Assembly (NCBI RefSeq): GCF_001894745.1
Contig: NZ_BBYF01000004.1
Location: 372,001 to 436,000, forward strand
Source: Paenibacillus sp. NAIST15-1
GTDB lineage: Bacteria; Bacillota; Bacilli; Paenibacillales; Paenibacillaceae
Direction: 5' to 3'
DNA length: 64,000 nucleotides
Shown here: in pieces, positions 47,375 through 55,892 of the stretch
Position numbering within the stretch: the stretch's first letter is position 1
Layout of the letters: every line of letters begins with the position of its first letter
Notes under the pieces: generated by a model
Databases searched by the model: none
Told to the model about the DNA's origin: nothing
The model's input: only the letters and a program-made list of their open reading frames with translations
Translations under genes and position numbers: made by a program

Positions 47375-47413
47375 AAAAAACAAAAATGGCCTTTACCGAT
47401 CACGGTAAAGGCC
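47375..47413 (-). terminator. Riboswitch-controlled terminator of the TerC gene
   Basis: On the minus strand GGCCTTTACCG-TGAT-CGGTAAAGGCC is followed by ATTTTTGTTTTTT. Its left arm is almost identical to the GACCTTTACC segment of the aptamer just upstream, so alternative pairing is built in. Confidence 0.9.
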
Positions 47414-47530
47414 ATAAATAAAGACCTTTACCCTGTCGGTAAAGGTCTCGCTAACAATCGAAGTTGCCAACAAAGCCGGAGGATTATCCTCGTAATGACG
47501 ACTTTATTGTAACAGCTACTCCCCTTTATA
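47414..47530 (-). ncRNA. yybP-ykoY manganese riboswitch
   Basis: Read on the minus strand, the RNA has the conserved 5' element TAAAGGGGAGTAGC (about 47529-47515), then GTCGTCATTACGAGG, CTCCGGCTTTGTTGGCAAC and GCGAGACCTTTACC, the signature segments of the yybP-ykoY class. TAAAGG pairs with CCTTTA to close P1. A second pairing, GACCTTTACC with GGTAAAGGTC (47423-47447), competes with P1. Mn2+ binding is expected to favour P1 and expose the next terminator to antitermination, turning the TerC gene on. Confidence 0.93.
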
Positions 47531-47655: not shown

Positions 47656-48360
47656 TTACTTGTCGTTCGAGGGCAATAATCCGTATTTCGTTTTCACCCG
47701 CAGCAGTATCTTGATCCATATCGCTGAGAAAATCGTAATGAAAAATACATTCGACAGCGCATGTGCTAAATCAAAATAAAAGCTAGCGACATAAGCGGAT
47801 ACGAATACCTTCCAGTTCAAATGATCATACATGCCGATCAAAAACCATAGATTCATAATCCAACCAAACAGGAATCCCCATGAGAACCCGAATATGTTCT
47901 TGCCCCACAAGCTCTTCATGAATCTTGTATTTCGCAGCAGGCCTGCCGTAAATCCAATCATCCCCCAACAGAACATCTGCCAAGGCGTCCACGGCCCTTG
48001 TCCAAGGAACATGTTCGATACCACTGCGGCGATACTGCCTACGAGGAACCCTACCTCCGGCCCAAATACGAGCGCAGACATCATAATGACGAAGGATGTC
48101 GGCTGCACGCTAGGCAGTGGCGCGAACGGCACGCGGCTCACAGCCGCAATCGCACCAAGCATCGCAATCAGCAGAATCTCTTCCGCCTTCATTGTCTTTC
48201 GCTCGAAGCGAATGAAGAAGGGCAGCATCGCGAGCCCGATCATCATAAAGCTCAGGGGCAAGTAGTACTTGTCCATCCATAACACAACTGCCATTACGAC
48301 TATGGCAGCTGCCATACTTCCCACGTAGATCGTGCGTTTTAATTTCCCCATTGTTCCCAT
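47656..48360 (-). CDS. ECF transporter substrate-binding (S) component, probably for cobalamin/corrinoid
   Basis: The 234-residue membrane protein has six to seven helices and the S-component pattern: a conserved RVPFAPLPSVQPTSFVIMMSALVFGPEVGFLVG region (about residues 95-128, only partly quoted as motif) and FLGQGPWTPWQMFCWGMIGFTAGLL split thereafter. The proline/glycine-rich WTPWQM loop is shared with CbrT/CblT-like corrinoid S components. It overlaps the ATPase gene by 22 bases and is the last gene of the cobalamin-riboswitch operon, which is the main reason to call corrinoid as substrate. Confidence 0.85.
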   Translation of the reverse strand: MGTMGKLKRTIYVGSMAAAIVVMAVVLWMDKYYLPLSFMMIGLAMLPFFIRFERKTMKAEEILLIAMLGAIAAVSRVPFAPLPSVQPTSFVIMMSALVFGPEVGFLVGSIAAVVSNMFLGQGPWTPWQMFCWGMIGFTAGLLRNTRFMKSLWGKNIFGFSWGFLFGWIMNLWFLIGMYDHLNWKVFVSAYVASFYFDLAHALSNVFFITIFSAIWIKILLRVKTKYGLLPSNDK

Positions 48361-50012
48361 ACATCCTTCACCGTGATCGCTTCGGGCAGGACATCTCCCA
48401 CTGTGCGATGAATCGTTGTTGTATAGAAGTAGTTGCTCTGCAAGAAGGAGCGTGTATCATCAACTGCGGCCATAGCGCCATTGAATAACAAACCGCATCT
48501 TGATGCATAGCTGGCCGCAAACTCAATGTCATGACTGACCATGACAATTGTGGTACCCGCTGCGCGTATCATTTCAAGCAATTCAGCCAACCGGTGCTTG
48601 GAAATAGGATCGAGTCCCTTCGTCGGCTCATCCAACAGCAGCAGCTTCGGGTCGGCCAACAAGACAAGCATGAGCGCTATTTTCTGCTGCTGCCCCCCAC
48701 TTATATCAAACGGATGTTTATCCATAATAGACTCGATGTCAAAACGTGCTGCGAGTTCATTCAGCTTCTCGATGCTGCTATGCTCGCCTAACCGCCTTAG
48801 CCGATCCATCAATTGCTCCCTCACCGTGTCTCTAGTGAAATAGAGCATCGGATTCTGCGCGACATACCCGATCATCCGACTCCGCTCTACTGTAGACTTC
48901 CGCAGCAAGGACTTGCCCGCATACAAGATGTCTCCTCGTTGAGGCTTATGTGCGCCCGCAATTTGCTGCAGCAATGTGGACTTCCCAGAGCCGTTGGCGC
49001 CAAGCAGGGCAAAGAATTCACCCTCTTGAATCGATAGAGACAATCGCTTCAAGACGAGAGGAGCATTTTTGTCATAGGTAAAATACAGCTCTTTGCATGT
49101 TAACAACGGCTCTAAATGCTGCCCATCAACCTTCACTGCTTCAGACAGGCTCTTCCCAGCAGCTTGCCGCCGTTCTTGCTTGCCAGCAAGCCATCTTCTT
49201 CCCTCTTTCACACTCATAGGTACAGCTCGGGCATCGCTTACTTTCTCTATTCCCAAATAAAGCTGACTGATAGATGGAAGATACGGCAAAAATAATGCAT
49301 CTTCATCCTTCCATATTTGCTTCATTACCTGATCAGGAGTGCCAAGATATGCGATCCCCCCCCGATTCAGCATGACAAGCTGCGTCGCATGGGGAACAAC
49401 TTCTTCAATTCGGTGTTCGCTGATTATAATCGTAAGGGAGAATTCTTCATTAATTCGGGAGAGCAATTGGATGAACTCTTTGGCTGCGATCGGATCAAGC
49501 TGAGCAGTAGGCTCATCCAGCAGCAGTACCCTCGGTCTTAATGTCATTACGGACGCCAAATGGACGAGCTGCTTTTGCCCGCCAGATAACTCATGTATCG
49601 GGAGATGGAGCCATTCCTCCATGCCAAAGAACTGTACGAGTTCCCCCACTCTTCGCTGCATTTGCGCGGTGGAATAGCCGAGATTCTCCATGCCAAAGGT
49701 CAATTCCTGCCACACCGTATTCATGACAATCTGATTGTCTGGATCTTGAAATACCATCCCGATTTCTTCAATGGATCGTCGCTCATCAAGCTGATCTAGA
49801 GCAATTCCTCTATAATAAATACTGCCACTCCGATTGCCTTCCGGCCGTACTTCCCGCTTAAGCTGGCGAAGCAGTGTAGTTTTGCCTGATCCTGATGGGC
49901 CGCACAGCAGCACGAATTCTCCCTCTTCTATGGTGATGGTGATATGATCAAGCGTCTTCTCTGAACAATTGGGATACTGAAAACTTACATCTTCGATCTG
50001 ATAGTGCGCCAT
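48339..50012 (-). CDS. ECF transporter fused A-A' ATPase
   Basis: The start at 50012 (MAHYQIEDVSFQYP) follows AAAGGAAGAG. The 557-residue protein carries two complete ABC domains: the first (about 1-245) with GPSGSGKTT, ELSGGQKQLVHLASVM and VLLLDEPTAQLD; the second (about 310-535) with GANGSGKST, DISGGQQQKIALM and LLLLDEPTKGLD. Fused A-A' pairs power ECF importers. It overlaps the T-component gene by 28 bases, so it belongs to a dedicated transporter, not a shared module. Confidence 0.93.
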   Translation of the reverse strand: MAHYQIEDVSFQYPNCSEKTLDHITITIEEGEFVLLCGPSGSGKTTLLRQLKREVRPEGNRSGSIYYRGIALDQLDERRSIEEIGMVFQDPDNQIVMNTVWQELTFGMENLGYSTAQMQRRVGELVQFFGMEEWLHLPIHELSGGQKQLVHLASVMTLRPRVLLLDEPTAQLDPIAAKEFIQLLSRINEEFSLTIIISEHRIEEVVPHATQLVMLNRGGIAYLGTPDQVMKQIWKDEDALFLPYLPSISQLYLGIEKVSDARAVPMSVKEGRRWLAGKQERRQAAGKSLSEAVKVDGQHLEPLLTCKELYFTYDKNAPLVLKRLSLSIQEGEFFALLGANGSGKSTLLQQIAGAHKPQRGDILYAGKSLLRKSTVERSRMIGYVAQNPMLYFTRDTVREQLMDRLRRLGEHSSIEKLNELAARFDIESIMDKHPFDISGGQQQKIALMLVLLADPKLLLLDEPTKGLDPISKHRLAELLEMIRAAGTTIVMVSHDIEFAASYASRCGLLFNGAMAAVDDTRSFLQSNYFYTTTIHRTVGDVLPEAITVKDVWEQWGN

Positions 50013-50872
50013 AACAGCTCTTCCTTTCCGTTCATCACGATCGGGATGAAGATAAATACCAAGTAACATGCTGCATGCAGCCAAAGCTGTGGCGACCACT
50101 CCAACGACTGCAGCCGTGGATACACTTGGAAGCGATTAACGCCGAACAATCCGCCAATCACAATATTGGCTCCCGTCACGACCATGATCCATAATACAAG
50201 GACATCCCTTTTATCCATCTTGTAGGATATTGCACTCGTTCTCTTCCCAACGCCATATCCTCTCGCACGCATAGAGCTAGCTGTTTGAAGCGCTTCTTCC
50301 AGCGACCAGCTAATTAATGTATGCAGGGTCTCCATGCCTTCGCGCATAAGATGCTTCTTGCTGGCTTTCGGATGCAGGTAACCAAGAACACGTTGAACCG
50401 TCATAATCTGCTTCAGCCGTCTCGTCAACAGCGGCACAAAACGGAGGGTTACCGTAATGATAAAGGCCGTTCGCGGGGCGATTGGGGTTAATAGGTACAA
50501 TAATTTCTCCGGTGTGATGACGAGATTGTAAGCGACAAATGCCAGCAGTATATTGAGCAGTGATAATGCGAATAGAGCACCATATATGATCGATTCCAAT
50601 GTAATCGGACGGTCGAACACATACCCAAGAATGGTAGCTCCACGACTAGAGAAGAAGGGATTGAGCAAGAAAATAATCATAGCCATAATCAGGTATCCCT
50701 TAATCCCCTTCTTGAGCACTCTCCCTCCATCCAAGGATAGATTCAATAGAACGATACTAAGTAAAGTAAGAACTGAATATACAGGATGCGTGAACATCAT
50801 GCATGAGAGCAGCAGTACGGCAAAATAGGCGAAACATAATCGCGGATGTAATGTGGAGAAGCCGTGTATCAT
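49985..50872 (-). CDS. ECF transporter transmembrane (T) component
   Basis: The start at 50872 (MIHGFSTLHPR) follows GGGGAG and comes one base after the stop of the DUF4430 gene. The 295-residue protein has five to six helices and the EcfT coupling motifs: SSMRARGYGVGK (the second A-R-G coupling helix, about residues 205-216) and the FVPLLTRRLKQIMTVQRVLGY helix before it. It links the two ATPase halves to the S component. Confidence 0.9.
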   Translation of the reverse strand: MIHGFSTLHPRLCFAYFAVLLLSCMMFTHPVYSVLTLLSIVLLNLSLDGGRVLKKGIKGYLIMAMIIFLLNPFFSSRGATILGYVFDRPITLESIIYGALFALSLLNILLAFVAYNLVITPEKLLYLLTPIAPRTAFIITVTLRFVPLLTRRLKQIMTVQRVLGYLHPKASKKHLMREGMETLHTLISWSLEEALQTASSMRARGYGVGKRTSAISYKMDKRDVLVLWIMVVTGANIVIGGLFGVNRFQVYPRLQSLEWSPQLWLHAACYLVFIFIPIVMNGKEELLWRTIRSKM

Positions 50873-50873
50873 A

Positions 50874-51872
50874 TTAGCTCTCCCCATCCCATAGTCCGTC
50901 GTCAGTACCCGCTCCTAAGTCCTTGCCTAGATCCTCCGTATACAGCCATTGAATATGGTCTCCAGGATGAATCGGCCATACGCCTGCGCTGCGGTTCGGA
51001 AATTTACTATTAATGCTGTACATCCAGCCGCTCCCTGAGCCCTTGTCGAACTCATATAAATTATCAATACCTTTTACATAAGCAGTTGCACCGGAACCGC
51101 TGAAGTCCATTTGAATCTTCTTAGCACGCGTCGCTTTTTTCAATACATCCATTACGGTTTCCGAATCGCCAATTTCGATTTCCTCTGTGCTCATGATCGT
51201 ACCAATATCCGAGGATCCCACAATCGTAAGCTGCACGGTAGTAGTCTGTGGAGGCTTTGCATCAGGCTGAGAAGCAACTCCTTTGTTCGGTGTAGACTTT
51301 CCATCTTGCTTATTGCTGCCCTTGCTCTCCTTTTCGCCTGCATTCCCCTTGCTCTCTTTTGCAGAAGGAGACGTGCCAAAAGGTTTTTTATCCTTTGGAG
51401 TTACATCCGATTTCACAGAAGACTCCGTTGCTTTACTTACGATGCTTTTTCCCTGCGTTGTTTCAGTAACCTGATTTTTCTGTTGGCCTTCCTCCTTCGT
51501 CGATTCTTTACTTGTAGTAGACGGATCAGAGCGTGTGTCCTTGTGATCTGGGTTATCCGTGTCTCCTGTTTTGCTTCCTATGTCCTGTACTGTATCAGAC
51601 TTGGGATCAGCTGTTGCTTGAGGCAACGATTCTGGATTCCCTTGATCCTGCTTCTGTTCGGATAGATTAGCAGTCTCACTTGCCAGATCCTTAGAGGCTT
51701 GGCTCGGGTGCTCTTGCTCTTGTGCCGTTGTATGACCAGCCAGCCTCTCATCCTTCGGCTGACTGCCATTTCCGCCATATATCCATACCGTAGCAATTAC
51801 AATGGCCAGTACTGCCAGTCCAGCTAACCATTTCTGTTTGTTGCGCTTTATCCACGCAAACCATTCGGACAT
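50874..51872 (-). CDS. Membrane-tethered DUF4430 (transcobalamin beta-domain-like) protein
   Basis: The 332-residue protein has a short basic N-terminus, one membrane helix (about 14-32), a hydrophilic low-complexity stalk of about 170 residues (35-205) rich in Ser, Thr, Lys, Glu, Gln and Pro, and a C-terminal DUF4430 domain (about 208-325). The domain shows the motifs ETVMDVLKKAT, GSGATAYVKGIDNLYEFDKGSGSGWMYSIN (partly quoted) and HPGDHIQWLYTEDLG. DUF4430 is the beta-domain of vertebrate transcobalamin and intrinsic factor. The stalk is long enough to place the domain in or across the cell wall. I infer a corrinoid acceptor feeding the ECF S component encoded in the same operon. Confidence 0.85.
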   Translation of the reverse strand: MSEWFAWIKRNKQKWLAGLAVLAIVIATVWIYGGNGSQPKDERLAGHTTAQEQEHPSQASKDLASETANLSEQKQDQGNPESLPQATADPKSDTVQDIGSKTGDTDNPDHKDTRSDPSTTSKESTKEEGQQKNQVTETTQGKSIVSKATESSVKSDVTPKDKKPFGTSPSAKESKGNAGEKESKGSNKQDGKSTPNKGVASQPDAKPPQTTTVQLTIVGSSDIGTIMSTEEIEIGDSETVMDVLKKATRAKKIQMDFSGSGATAYVKGIDNLYEFDKGSGSGWMYSINSKFPNRSAGVWPIHPGDHIQWLYTEDLGKDLGAGTDDGLWDGES

Positions 51873-51981: not shown

Positions 51982-54900
51982 TTATTGAATGCCGTGCAGT
52001 CTTACCATGACAACAGCAGCCATTTCCCGTGTCACATGAAGCTGTGGTTTAAAGTAACCGTCCTCACCCGACATCAGACCTGCTTGATAGGCATATTTGA
52101 CGTAGGGCAATGCCCACTCAGCTACTTGCTGTTGATCTTTCGGTCCTGCCGATGAATCTGCATCTTTCGGAAGACCCTTCATTCGTATGAGCATAGCTGC
52201 CATCTCTTGTCTCGAAATCGCCTGGTTCGGTGCAAATTTATTTGCCGAAACACCCGAAATCAGACCTTTTTCTTTCGCAGTGGCAACATATCCTGCATAC
52301 CAAGACGAAGCACTTACATCGGTAAATCCTGAATCTGTGCCTTGTGGCTGTAAACCAGCAAATTTCACGATCAATGCCGCGAACTCAGCCCGACTTAATT
52401 CCCGCTTCGGTTCAAATTGGGATGCGTCCTTATCTTTACCCGTACCCTGCATAAACCCGAGTTCCGTCGCTTTATGGACTGCTTCTTTTGCCCAAGCAGA
52501 AATGGAGGCATCGTCTGTGTACGTTATTTTCTCATCCTTTGGCTTCTGCGTGCCCGTTGATGCGGCGTCCGTCATCACATACAGGCTTGTTCGATTCGTC
52601 AACACGCGATCATAGGCTGTCAGCGCAAGCAATGCTTGCTGTGTTGCCATATAATTGCTCGCTTCGCCTCGTGAATGCGCAAATCCGCCGTCTGTATTGA
52701 AATACGTGCGCAGTGCTTTCAGCAAATCCCCATCCTTCTTCACGAATCGCTTGTCTTCCAAGTCAATTCCAAGACCGGACAGCGCAATAATCACCTGCGA
52801 GATGCTCTCACTCGTTTCAACACCCCATGCTTTAAATCCGCCGTTAGCGAGTTGTTGCGAAGACAACCAAGACAATGCCTTATCTGTGGCTGCTTTGACC
52901 TCTTTGCGATCTTGATATTTCGCCAATGCCTGCAGTGACATAGCAGTCATATCGATGTCGCTCACAGCATTAGACTCTTTGCTAAGCGGGAACCCGCCGT
53001 CTGAATTTTGTTGAGCAAGTAATTGCTGAATCAGCTTATCCCTTGTCCAGAGTGCATCGTTTGGAACAACTGTTTTGTTCGCATCCAAGGCTAATAAAGC
53101 AAACACGAGACCGTTCGTTCCTTGATTTGTCATGCGCCCATTATTATAGATTTTCTCTAAGAGGTTGAAGCCTGCTACATTACTTGGATCCTTGCCGATT
53201 GCCGTAACAGCCAAAGCCATGCGTTCATAGTCAGTAACTAATCGGAATTCTCCTTTTTTCTCTTTTACATAGTTTTCTAGAATCGCGTAATACGTAGAAG
53301 GAACTTTCTTACCTGAACGAGCCAGCGCCATGACGTCCCAATCATTAAAGTTGTCTTGAACGGTGAATTTGCGGTTGCTTAGTATCCATGCTGAAGCACC
53401 GTCAATAAGGCTCTTAAGCTTAGCAGACTCTTCTACCTGCTTCGGTGTAAGCGCGCCACCGCCCGTTCCTGCCCCCCCTGGGTGAACTGGCAATCCAGGT
53501 TTTCCTGGGGTTTCCTTGTTTCCTTCGAATTTATTGCCAACATCTTCGCCTAAATTTGTCGTGTACTGCCAACGAAGGACATCGCCATTCTTCAAGTTGT
53601 AGATTCCCGCACTATAGTTCGGGAACTTACCGTTGACGGAGTACATCCAACCACTCAAGCTCCCATTATCGAACTCTGCCAACCCATCGATTGCCTGAAT
53701 ATAGAGGTTAGCCCCTGAGCCGGTGGATTCAATGGAAATTCCTCGTTTCTCAGCAATACGTTCAAGCGCTGTATACGCTGTATCTCCATCCTGCAGTTCG
53801 ACGCGAACTGGTGCAATGATATCCCCTTTGCCTATGGTACGCTTTTCGACCGACAATGTGATCGTATTTGTGACCGGAGGGACTACGCCTCCACCGTTTC
53901 CATTACCGGTCTCCTTTATTTTCGAAATATAAGTTACAAATTCAGTGAAATGATTGGTCTTAACGATCAAATCGCCGTTAAGTGCATAAGAGTAGACTTC
54001 TTCATTCCGTTCTGAGGAATTATCGTATTTTGGAATCGACGTAAATATTCCGTTTTCATTAATGAACCCGGCTTCCTTATCTCCTTGCCCCTTCAAGATG
54101 AGGGTTACGTGTTGATTGAATCGGATCTCCTGATCACCGCCCACTTTCAAGCGGAGATCAATTCCCGTTGTCTCCTTGTTTACAAGGGACAAACCCTCGT
54201 TGACCTTCGTAAGCAAATTATCATTACTTATCCCCAAACTATGGGGTAGCTCAAGTCTCTTGTCCCATGTCGAAATTACAACCGTTTTCGGTGCTATTTC
54301 TAAGTAAGTACTGCTCGTTACCGAAATTACGTGTGGCAGTTCATCCTTAAGAAATTCAAGTGTTACTTTACTTGAGGATAATGGATCCAGATAAGTTCCT
54401 TCGGTGACGCTCGTTTGATGCTCGCCAACTAAGACTGTCCTGCCATTTGTCTGCGATTGATCCGGTGGAAGCTTCACCTCTGCAAGTCGATTCCACGCCG
54501 ACTTTCCATGCTTGATATCAAGTAATGCGACTAGGGCTTGCTCCGTGGACATCCGGTTTGTAGCGTTATCCGTTACTTTCCATTTAAATGATCCGTTATT
54601 TTGTTGAAAACGTGCATATGCATCAATAACTGTGTTGCCGGACTTTCTCCACTTTGCTGACAAGACATCATCGCCTGCCGCAACCAATCCCGATACGGAT
54701 GTAGATAAGCTATTGGAATTATCTCCAGATCCCCATGTACCAACGGAATCAAACCCTCCGTTGTCCAATTGGCGTTTTTTCAACAATTCCTTAGCTCGTT
54801 CAATTGCCGCATCTACCGCGCTCTGTCCTTGGTATTGACCAAGTGCAAGCAGCGCCATACCAGTAATGTCAGTATCACCCGAACTGCCGGTAGCTGACAA

Positions 54901-55491
54901 TCCATAACCTCCGTCGGCATATTGTGCTTTAAGCAGATAATCGAGCGCTTTTTGCTTGGATGAGGCATTCCATGACCCCATATCCTGACCAAGCTTTTCC
55001 CCAGCGTTTAAGGCAAGCATTGCCCAAATGTGTTTATTGACTCCACCAATGGCACCCGTTGTTGGATCTTGCTGAGCTGCCAGTTCAGCCCACAGATTCC
55101 GGTTCGTCTCCCAAGCGTGAGCCGGATTCTTTCCTAATGCAAGCAAACCATAAATATATCGAATATGATCGGTGCCTCCTGCATTTGGCCGGAGTCTTGG
55201 CTCTTTCGTTTCCCATGTAGGTAATCTCCAAGTCCCATCATGCAAATCTTGACCCGCGCTCCACAGAGCAACAAGCTCCCACCATGAATCACTCACAGCA
55301 TCTTGATTAGAAACATCCTTATAATAGTCCTTATAATATTGAACCGTTTGTTCAATCATGTTATTTAACTGTGTATTGCCCTGCCCACTAGCCGCTCTTA
55401 TGACTTGTGGCTGTACAAGAGATAACAACAACACGATACTTAGTAATGCAGACAAGCTCTTCTTCAACATTCTGTTCGTAATCATCTTCAA
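51982..55491 (-). CDS. S-layer-anchored transcobalamin-like protein (alpha/alpha-barrel repeats, DUF4430, SLH x3)
   Basis: The start is TTG at 55491, eight bases after AAGGAG. The 1169-residue product has a signal peptide (about 1-33, ending IRAA), then a first helical domain with prenyltransferase/terpene-cyclase-like repeats (about 40-340; DGGYGLS near 195, NGGFDS near 245), a beta-rich middle part (340-530), a Gly-rich linker, a DUF4430 domain (about 545-655, with GWMYSVNGKFPNYSAGIY), a second helical repeat domain (about 685-965; DGGFPLS, NGGFKAWG, DGGFAHS), and three SLH domains (about 990-1169). Alpha/alpha barrel plus DUF4430 is the architecture of human intrinsic factor and transcobalamin. 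The cobalamin riboswitch upstream and the ECF importer downstream make a surface vitamin-B12-binding protein the best reading; direct binding is not shown. Confidence 0.88.
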   Translation of the reverse strand: MKMITNRMLKKSLSALLSIVLLLSLVQPQVIRAASGQGNTQLNNMIEQTVQYYKDYYKDVSNQDAVSDSWWELVALWSAGQDLHDGTWRLPTWETKEPRLRPNAGGTDHIRYIYGLLALGKNPAHAWETNRNLWAELAAQQDPTTGAIGGVNKHIWAMLALNAGEKLGQDMGSWNASSKQKALDYLLKAQYADGGYGLSATGSSGDTDITGMALLALGQYQGQSAVDAAIERAKELLKKRQLDNGGFDSVGTWGSGDNSNSLSTSVSGLVAAGDDVLSAKWRKSGNTVIDAYARFQQNNGSFKWKVTDNATNRMSTEQALVALLDIKHGKSAWNRLAEVKLPPDQSQTNGRTVLVGEHQTSVTEGTYLDPLSSSKVTLEFLKDELPHVISVTSSTYLEIAPKTVVISTWDKRLELPHSLGISNDNLLTKVNEGLSLVNKETTGIDLRLKVGGDQEIRFNQHVTLILKGQGDKEAGFINENGIFTSIPKYDNSSERNEEVYSYALNGDLIVKTNHFTEFVTYISKIKETGNGNGGGVVPPVTNTITLSVEKRTIGKGDIIAPVRVELQDGDTAYTALERIAEKRGISIESTGSGANLYIQAIDGLAEFDNGSLSGWMYSVNGKFPNYSAGIYNLKNGDVLRWQYTTNLGEDVGNKFEGNKETPGKPGLPVHPGGAGTGGGALTPKQVEESAKLKSLIDGASAWILSNRKFTVQDNFNDWDVMALARSGKKVPSTYYAILENYVKEKKGEFRLVTDYERMALAVTAIGKDPSNVAGFNLLEKIYNNGRMTNQGTNGLVFALLALDANKTVVPNDALWTRDKLIQQLLAQQNSDGGFPLSKESNAVSDIDMTAMSLQALAKYQDRKEVKAATDKALSWLSSQQLANGGFKAWGVETSESISQVIIALSGLGIDLEDKRFVKKDGDLLKALRTYFNTDGGFAHSRGEASNYMATQQALLALTAYDRVLTNRTSLYVMTDAASTGTQKPKDEKITYTDDASISAWAKEAVHKATELGFMQGTGKDKDASQFEPKRELSRAEFAALIVKFAGLQPQGTDSGFTDVSASSWYAGYVATAKEKGLISGVSANKFAPNQAISRQEMAAMLIRMKGLPKDADSSAGPKDQQQVAEWALPYVKYAYQAGLMSGEDGYFKPQLHVTREMAAVVMVRLHGIQ

Positions 55492-55525: not shown

Positions 55526-55560
55526 ATAAAAAAACATCTTCCCTTGTTAGAAAGATGTTA
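55526..55560 (-). terminator. Cobalamin riboswitch expression-platform terminator
   Basis: On the minus strand AACATCTT pairs with AAGATGTT around a short loop and is followed by TTTTTATT, about 35 bases before the first start codon. It is the natural off-state of the riboswitch. Confidence 0.85.
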
Positions 55561-55653
55561 GGTAACCACTTCGGTGCAGCCAAATACACTAGTAATCTCC
55601 TACTAGCAGCACGAATAAACATCCCCCTCCCATCCTCGTGAGAAATATAGAGC

Positions 55654-55828
55654 ACTTATATGGCAGGTCTCCTGGCTTCGCATCATCGCTCGACAATCCA
55701 CCTTCCCGTTAACTCAGTTAACAGTGGATAAAAGCCTTGATTGTCAGCTCTGCGTTACAGTGGCGGGACCGCGTCGAACTTGCATCGACTTCCCTATTAA
55801 GCTGCGCATGCACAGCACCATATAAACT
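55654..55828 (-). ncRNA. Cobalamin (adenosylcobalamin-type) riboswitch
   Basis: Read on the minus strand, P1 forms from TTATATGG (about 55826-55819) and CCATATAA near 55656. Between them stand the conserved GGGAA..GCAAG segment, the B12 box region GCGGTCCCGCCACTGT, and the terminal GAAGCCAGGAGACCTGCC. These are the hallmark sequences of the class. A terminator follows at 55526-55560. High cobalamin should shut off the surface protein and ECF transporter genes. Confidence 0.95.
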
Positions 55829-55863
55829 ATTTCTATGTAATTGCGATAAGAATACGTGGTTTT

Positions 55864-55892
55864 ATTGTAGCAAAATTTAGTAGGGCGGACAA
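55864..55892 (-). promoter_or_regulatory. Promoter of the cobalamin-riboswitch operon
   Basis: On the minus strand TTGTCC (55887-55892), 17 bases, TACAAT (55864-55869), placing the transcript start about 30 bases before the aptamer. Confidence 0.65.

Follow-up and report, generated by a model that had tools for sequence, protein, structure and literature searches.

A wall-anchored protein behind a cobalamin riboswitch in Paenibacillus, predicted to capture corrinoids for a CbrT-like importer

RESULTS

A predicted corrinoid-capture protein heads a cobalamin-controlled operon

The window analysed here is a stretch of 64,000 nucleotides from Paenibacillus sp. NAIST15-1 (contig NZ_BBYF01000004.1, positions 372,001 to 436,000), and our subject is a minus-strand gene within it (51982..55491) whose 1169-residue product combines two alpha/alpha toroids, a DUF4430 domain and three S-layer homology (SLH) domains. 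Very probably, this is a secreted and wall-anchored protein, predicted to capture corrinoids as the entry point of a system for cobalamin uptake. That corrinoid capture at the surface, the binding itself being predicted, feeds an energy-coupling factor (ECF) importer of the ECF-CbrT kind is well supported. The evidence is that toroid-type and transcobalamin-type beta domains, a cobalamin riboswitch and CbrT-like ECF genes share one operon, and that relatives repeat the layout. A role in cobalamin uptake is assigned because of the riboswitch, the CbrT-like S component, the genome context and the riboswitches of the relatives.

The riboswitch aptamer lies at 55645..55837 on the minus strand, matches RF00174 over its full length (1-189) with 111.3 bits and an E-value of 4.9e-27, and is the sole match at the gathering threshold in the window. 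It ends 153 nucleotides before the start codon of the main gene. An earlier note on this DNA, made from the sequence alone, had placed the gene behind a cobalamin riboswitch; the search confirms this, and the arrangement recurs in relatives. As a genetic arrangement, control of the main gene by cobalamin is near-certain. The gap between aptamer and start codon holds an intrinsic-terminator-like hairpin followed by a T run (55533..55559, minus strand), the likely expression platform, which appears in both the minimum-energy and the centroid structures; the 119-nucleotide stretch containing it folds with a z-score of -1.61, 16 of 200 shuffles folding as well or better.

The reading frame of the main gene is real, the plus-strand translation being ridden with stops. 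It starts with TTG, and AAGGAG stands upstream at 55505-55500. All on the minus strand, the protein runs from a signal peptide (residues 1-33, 55393..55491, read by eye as MKMITNRMLKKSLSALLSIVLLLSLVQPQVIRA-AS) through a first alpha/alpha toroid (about residues 37-337, 54481..55383), a beta-rich region that we call 'm' (residues 376-528 by profile, 53908..54366), the DUF4430 or transcobalamin-type beta domain (residues 544-652, 53536..53862) and a second toroid (about residues 683-967, 52591..53445) to three SLH domains (residues 991-1164, 52000..52521; motifs LSRAE at 1032, ISRQE at 1092 and VTREM at 1153). The toroids were delimited with Pfam and an AlphaFold model, and the beta domain with Pfam and a structure model. 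Pfam places DUF4430 at 569-644 (E = 7e-19) and SLH in three stretches (E = 2e-35), and finds Prenyltrans/SQHop toroid repeats strongly in the second toroid and weakly in the first (SQHop_cyclase_N, 175-250). Region 'm' (∼345-535), which recurs in most relatives, has no match in the Pfam search. The earlier note had listed the signal peptide, the doubled toroid, DUF4430 and the three SLH domains, all of which hold, with limits (40-340, 545-655 and 685-965) that fit the AlphaFold model, where the helices of the toroids cover about residues 37-336 and 683-964; region 'm' had been overlooked. Its observation that two alpha domains with one beta domain are unlike the vertebrate carriers is likewise upheld by the domain layout.

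The beta domain is predicted to be of the animal carrier type

In an AlphaFold model of 945 residues (7 alignment rows; model residue n is protein residue n+35), the beta domain was poorly modelled, and it was therefore folded alone (117 residues, 17 alignment rows), giving a pLDDT (predicted local distance difference test) of 90.6 and a pTM (predicted template modelling score) of 0.84. At E ≤ 1e-3, Foldseek returned 19 chains for this model: 17 of transcobalamin, intrinsic factor or haptocorrin, and two of the bacterial structure 3u7z. VIA ranks 1-14 are haptocorrin, intrinsic factor and transcobalamin, with Z 12.0-14.6 over 98-105 of the 117 residues, followed by 3u7z at Z 11.9 and all remaining entries at 8.1 or less. 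When the beta profile was compared with PDB sequences, transcobalamin-2 and -1 ranked first, but only with E-values of 0.006 and 0.008. By structure prediction, the DUF4430 domain of the main protein is thus a beta domain of the transcobalamin/intrinsic factor/haptocorrin type, in agreement with the resemblance proposed earlier.

The bacterial match, 3u7z, is RUMGNA_00854 of R. gnavus, an isolated beta domain deposited as a putative metal-binding protein. We know of no function for it; from its structural closeness to the modelled beta domain it might be a corrinoid binder.

A tethered beta protein and a CbrT-like ECF module lie downstream

On the same strand, 3' of the main gene, follow a single-DUF4430 gene, EcfT, a fused double ATPase and an S component, none of which the earlier note had mentioned. 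The single-DUF4430 protein (50874..51872, minus strand, 332 residues, by Pfam) has an N-terminal hydrophobic segment, a low-complexity linker of ∼178 residues and a C-terminal DUF4430 domain; the genome holds two DUF4430 domains, and both are in this operon. EcfT, of the CbiQ family, occupies 49985..50887 (minus strand; PF02361, E = 4.5e-10). The fused ECF ATPase, with two ABC domains, is annotated at 48339..50099 (minus strand; Pfam and profile match), and since the profile match starts at residue 28 its true start is probably near 50015. The S component (47656..48360, minus strand, Pfam ECF_trnsprt and phmmer) is CbrT-like: compared with PDB sequences by phmmer it matches 6fnp_A at E = 9.9e-17, the next match having E = 0.98. 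6FNP is the crystal structure of ECF-CbrT (PMC5997447; here and below, papers are cited as far as the accessible parts of their text go). The operon thus contains the make-up of ECF-CbrT, namely a CbrT-like S component, EcfT and EcfA, the substrate being assigned by sequence likeness.

The tethered protein recurs in the relatives. Among the single-DUF4430 proteins, 53 rows of which 52 are distinct, a simple hydropathy scan found a strongly hydrophobic N-terminal segment in all 53, and 10 carry a lipobox-like motif. Linker lengths run from 28 to 282 residues with a median of 179, and the two shortest belong to extra genes of loci L014 and L088. A linker of ∼180 residues could, by our estimate, stretch over tens of nanometres, enough to span a Gram-positive wall.

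The riboswitch link and the operon layout recur across the phylum

Of 295 genomes of the family, 128 have DUF4430; across the phylum, 77 of the 249 sampled do. The family sample comprised 58 of 62 listed places with frames of at least 800 residues (among the matches listed) together with the short-frame places G126, G084 and G157; the places left out lie near a contig start (G027, G288) or close to G167 (G186, G208). A same-strand cobalamin aptamer lies within 10 kb upstream at all 61 of these loci (60 genomes), and within 5.2 kb at 58 of them, where ∼0.13 would be expected. Outside the family, 27 of the 74 DUF4430 genomes, with a listed frame of at least 600 residues, were picked ahead of the riboswitch search; 26 of the 27 (21 genera) have a same-strand aptamer within 5 kb upstream.

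Architectures were surveyed in 66 fetched loci, 65 of them distinct (L010 is the same as L050). All four of a solo DUF4430 gene, EcfT, EcfA and EcfS were present at 50 of the 65, a full set here meaning presence within the fetched stretch and being no proof of co-transcription. SLH domains are in the main frame at 63 loci, and the remaining two, L013 and L100, have a split frame, with SLH in the piece that follows. At least two toroids occur in 47 of the 65 main frames, and the loci show 31 architecture patterns, with frames of up to 2709 residues. Thirty toroid-beta units (29 distinct) span 380-421 residues, compared with 409 for the human transcobalamin chain 2bb5_A. The minimal versions are toroid-DUF4430-SLH proteins of 716-740 residues behind a cobalamin riboswitch (L102:5672-7888, L103:10215-12437 and L104:6196-8346); judged from their domain order, these have the animal-carrier layout plus an anchor and are the best candidates for a bacterial analogue of intrinsic factor. 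Close relatives of the window protein (L010/L050, L012, L051, L059, L074 and, in two pieces, L013) have the order toroid-beta-m-beta-toroid. The first beta domain of this order is missing from the window protein and from L088, which, from the domain order of the relatives, we read as a loss.

The toroids are modelled with the fold of transcobalamin and lie nearer to terpene cyclases in sequence

In the long model the toroids mostly have pLDDT values of 80-97; a stretch near the beginning of the first toroid is modelled poorly. Transcobalamin accounts for six of the best 50 Foldseek rows, and prenyltransferases, cyclases and glycosidases likewise match the toroids by fold. As modelled, the toroids are of the alpha/alpha fold found in transcobalamin, while by profile comparison they are nearer to terpene cyclases. 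The alpha domains had been described earlier as transcobalamin-like, and this stands for the modelled fold and finds no support as regards a specific kinship in sequence.

Two other identities for the toroids were considered and rejected. A class II terpene cyclase would carry the DxDD acid motif, which just 2 of the 127 toroid rows contain, and the alpha-macroglobulin thioester domain (TED, a Pfam match) would carry GCGEQ, present in none of the 127. Separately, below the cut-off of NCBIfam SCO2321_fam, 17 of the 22 toroid-beta units show a match to it (best 4.1e-11), and this family may be a counterpart of the toroid elsewhere.

Several of our results weigh against the interpretation as a corrinoid-capture protein. 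The beta part of the long model has a pLDDT of only about 32-64, with a pTM of 0.40 for the model, so that the interface between toroid and beta domain carries no confidence. Transcobalamin is absent from the best 50 VIA rows for the long model, which cover almost only model residues 646-932 and are led by cyclases, epimerases and GH105. Compared with PDB sequences, the toroid profiles match squalene-hopene cyclase and drimenyl diphosphate synthase best and never reach transcobalamin through a toroid; where transcobalamin does appear in the search with toroid-beta profiles, it is matched through the beta part alone. Pfam Cobalamin_bind (PF01122) is reached at E ≤ 1 by 3 of 42 toroids (best 0.016) and by 1 of 22 toroid-beta units. 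Within the genus of the window the distribution is patchy, with DUF4430 in 6 of 19 genomes and absent from the other 13; the system is therefore dispensable. One of the 27 phylum genomes has no aptamer on the contig and strand of its DUF4430 gene, and the full ECF set is missing from the fetched stretch at 15 of the 65 loci.

DISCUSSION

Proposed mechanism and alternative readings

The arrangement suggests the following course of events. When B12 is scarce, the terminator would be read through, and the SLH protein would be exported and bind the wall polymer. Cobalamin or another corrinoid would be held between a toroid and the beta domain, in the manner of intrinsic factor; in the window protein the likeliest binding pair would be the second toroid with the beta domain, and the first toroid might either be inactive or form a pair with the beta domain of the tethered protein. 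The tethered beta protein would take over the corrinoid and carry it across the wall to CbrT, where the ECF module would import it; that the tethered protein acts as a shuttle is something we infer. Extended to the relatives, this would amount to a two-station wall relay, in which SLH proteins catch cobalamin and a linker-borne membrane beta domain swings to CbrT, with toroid and beta counts varying by species such that capture capacity and corrinoid range evolve through domain shuffling, and with animals having taken up the same pair of domains for intrinsic factor and transcobalamin. We put this wider picture forward tentatively, as a proposal a little on the doubtful side of even.

The same system might serve another cargo, cobinamide, pseudocobalamin or cobamides broadly, with the operon devoted to precursor salvage. 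By reading, the genome has the salvage genes CobU/CobS/CobT/CobQ/CbiB, and CbrT itself also takes cobinamide (PMC5997447). The riboswitch senses cobalamin, which says nothing of the cargo, and the evidence does not separate the cargoes; we regard a different cargo as unlikely, though far from implausible.

The cyclase matches raise a further reading, that the toroids are surface enzymes of the terpene-cyclase-like, GH105 or epimerase fold group within the cobalamin regulon, with the beta domain alone touching cobalamin. Both the leading sequence matches of the toroid profiles and the leading VIA rows favour enzymes. However, the rarity of DxDD among the toroid rows speaks against a cyclase, an extracellular cyclase would have no evident rationale, and toroid-beta units of the size of transcobalamin recur, including the minimal toroid-beta-SLH proteins of L102, L103 and L104, so that we consider the enzyme reading quite improbable. 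Least probable of all, and barely to be entertained, is a structural S-layer protein or adhesin under cobalamin control with no ligand to bind: the SLH domains and the huge size and repeated domains of some relatives would suit it, but the conserved CbrT-like ECF neighbours and the transcobalamin-type domain do not.

Relation to known systems

To our knowledge, how Gram-positive bacteria collect B12 before the membrane transporter takes it up is in large part an open matter, whereas Bacteroides have BtuG/BtuH. Our preferred reading, a wall-anchored protein that captures corrinoids, has a clear precedent. In the accessible parts of their paper, Burroughs et al. 2007 (PMC1796856) describe secreted SLBB proteins of low-GC Gram-positive bacteria with a toroid fused on either side, encoded in operons that also contain CbiO/CbiQ genes and the gene of another, likewise extracellular, SLBB protein, in hosts that usually have no B12 synthesis; they consider B12 scavenging probable and propose that animals obtained their carriers from such bacteria. 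The window protein shares with that class the SLBB/DUF4430-toroid fusion, the CbiQ/CbiO-type operon with a second SLBB protein and a host that, judged by the missing CbiD, would lack de novo B12 synthesis. Our central idea is thus the 2007 prediction, and what the window contributes is additions to a known class: the protein and its operon differ in the SLH anchor, the two toroids around one beta domain, the riboswitch, the CbrT-like S component and the long tether. The accessible text of the 2007 paper uses none of the terms riboswitch, SLH and S-layer, and cobalamin riboswitches are not mentioned in the matches listed by a search of the open-licence literature. The SLH anchor, the near-universal link to the riboswitch, the link to CbrT, the variable toroid and beta counts and the tethered partner all appear to be new. 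We found no experimental test of a Gram-positive protein of this class among the open-licence papers listed by our searches, which does not establish that there is none.

With the animal carriers transcobalamin, intrinsic factor and haptocorrin, the window protein would share the modelled beta domain and toroid fold, a toroid placed before the beta domain and, in its relatives, a unit of ∼400 residues. It differs in being wall-anchored, in having two toroids and one beta domain with an extra beta region between them, and in toroids with no sequence match to the animal toroid; moreover, the beta domain is C-terminal in the carriers and internal here. With ECF-CbrT of Lactobacillus delbrueckii the common elements are the CbrT-like S component, EcfT and EcfA (PMC5997447). 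There, however, cbrT sits in an nrdJ-cbrS-cbrT-pduO cluster, whereas the genes described here form an operon of their own, which also encodes two SLBB proteins and fused ATPases.

The earlier note had suggested that the protein would be a Gram-positive counterpart of BtuB/BtuG, an analogy that stands for the role, capture of B12 at the surface before the transporter as by BtuG/BtuH with BtuB in Bacteroides (PMC10404256), and fails for the fold, since BtuG is a beta-propeller lipoprotein at the outer membrane. Pfam finds no propeller family in the main protein, whose predicted folds are toroid and beta-grasp. The accessible text of PMC10404256 makes no mention of Gram-positive, Firmicutes or transcobalamin. 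If our reading is true, a wall-anchored counterpart made of the domains of human intrinsic factor is widespread in the phylum, and the 2007 proposal of a bacterial origin for the animal carriers becomes directly testable in a simple genetic system. This would be likely to surprise most B12 specialists, although it was predicted in outline.

Anchoring, genome context and minor features

The ligand of SLH domains is secondary cell wall polymer, as stated in the accessible part of PMC6081394. The main protein has a signal peptide (by eye) and three SLH domains, and its host encodes the pyruvyl transferase CsaB (269.6 bits against a cut-off of 213.1). With the three SLH domains and CsaB, the anchoring claimed earlier is plausible; its target, given as the S-layer, should read the cell wall via SLH.

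A family search did not find CbiD in the genome, which is rated 100% complete; further early B12-synthesis genes were not searched. The genome encodes a MetH-like protein. Its other three cobalamin aptamers stand at loci that we read by eye as metE, as btuFCD together with salvage genes, and as eut. Locus L009 (G000:C17:18000-30000) has a partial cobalamin aptamer at the cut-off (31.5 bits), and nearby genes read as ethanolamine utilisation with an EutV-like regulator.

A promoter-like site, TTGTCC-17-TACAAT with TG before the second hexamer, lies at 55864..55892 (minus strand). Such sites are no commoner in the region than in shuffles (11 against 13.7 expected), making it a weak candidate, favoured by its position just 5' of the aptamer. 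Two terminator-like hairpins (47449-47421 and 47415-47386, together 47386..47449, minus strand) mark the probable end of the operon; the region contains 11 such sites, against 6.8 (sd 2.8) in shuffles.

Among the relatives, L013 (7896-12139) and L100 (6455-11448) each have a main frame made of two overlapping open reading frames, from a sequencing error or a real frameshift. L045, L055 and L060 have the riboswitch and large SLH-toroid-DUF4430 proteins in stretches without solo DUF4430, EcfT or EcfS, and they may be capture proteins that act on their own. In genome G217, one locus (L055) lacks those genes and another (L064) has the ECF genes.

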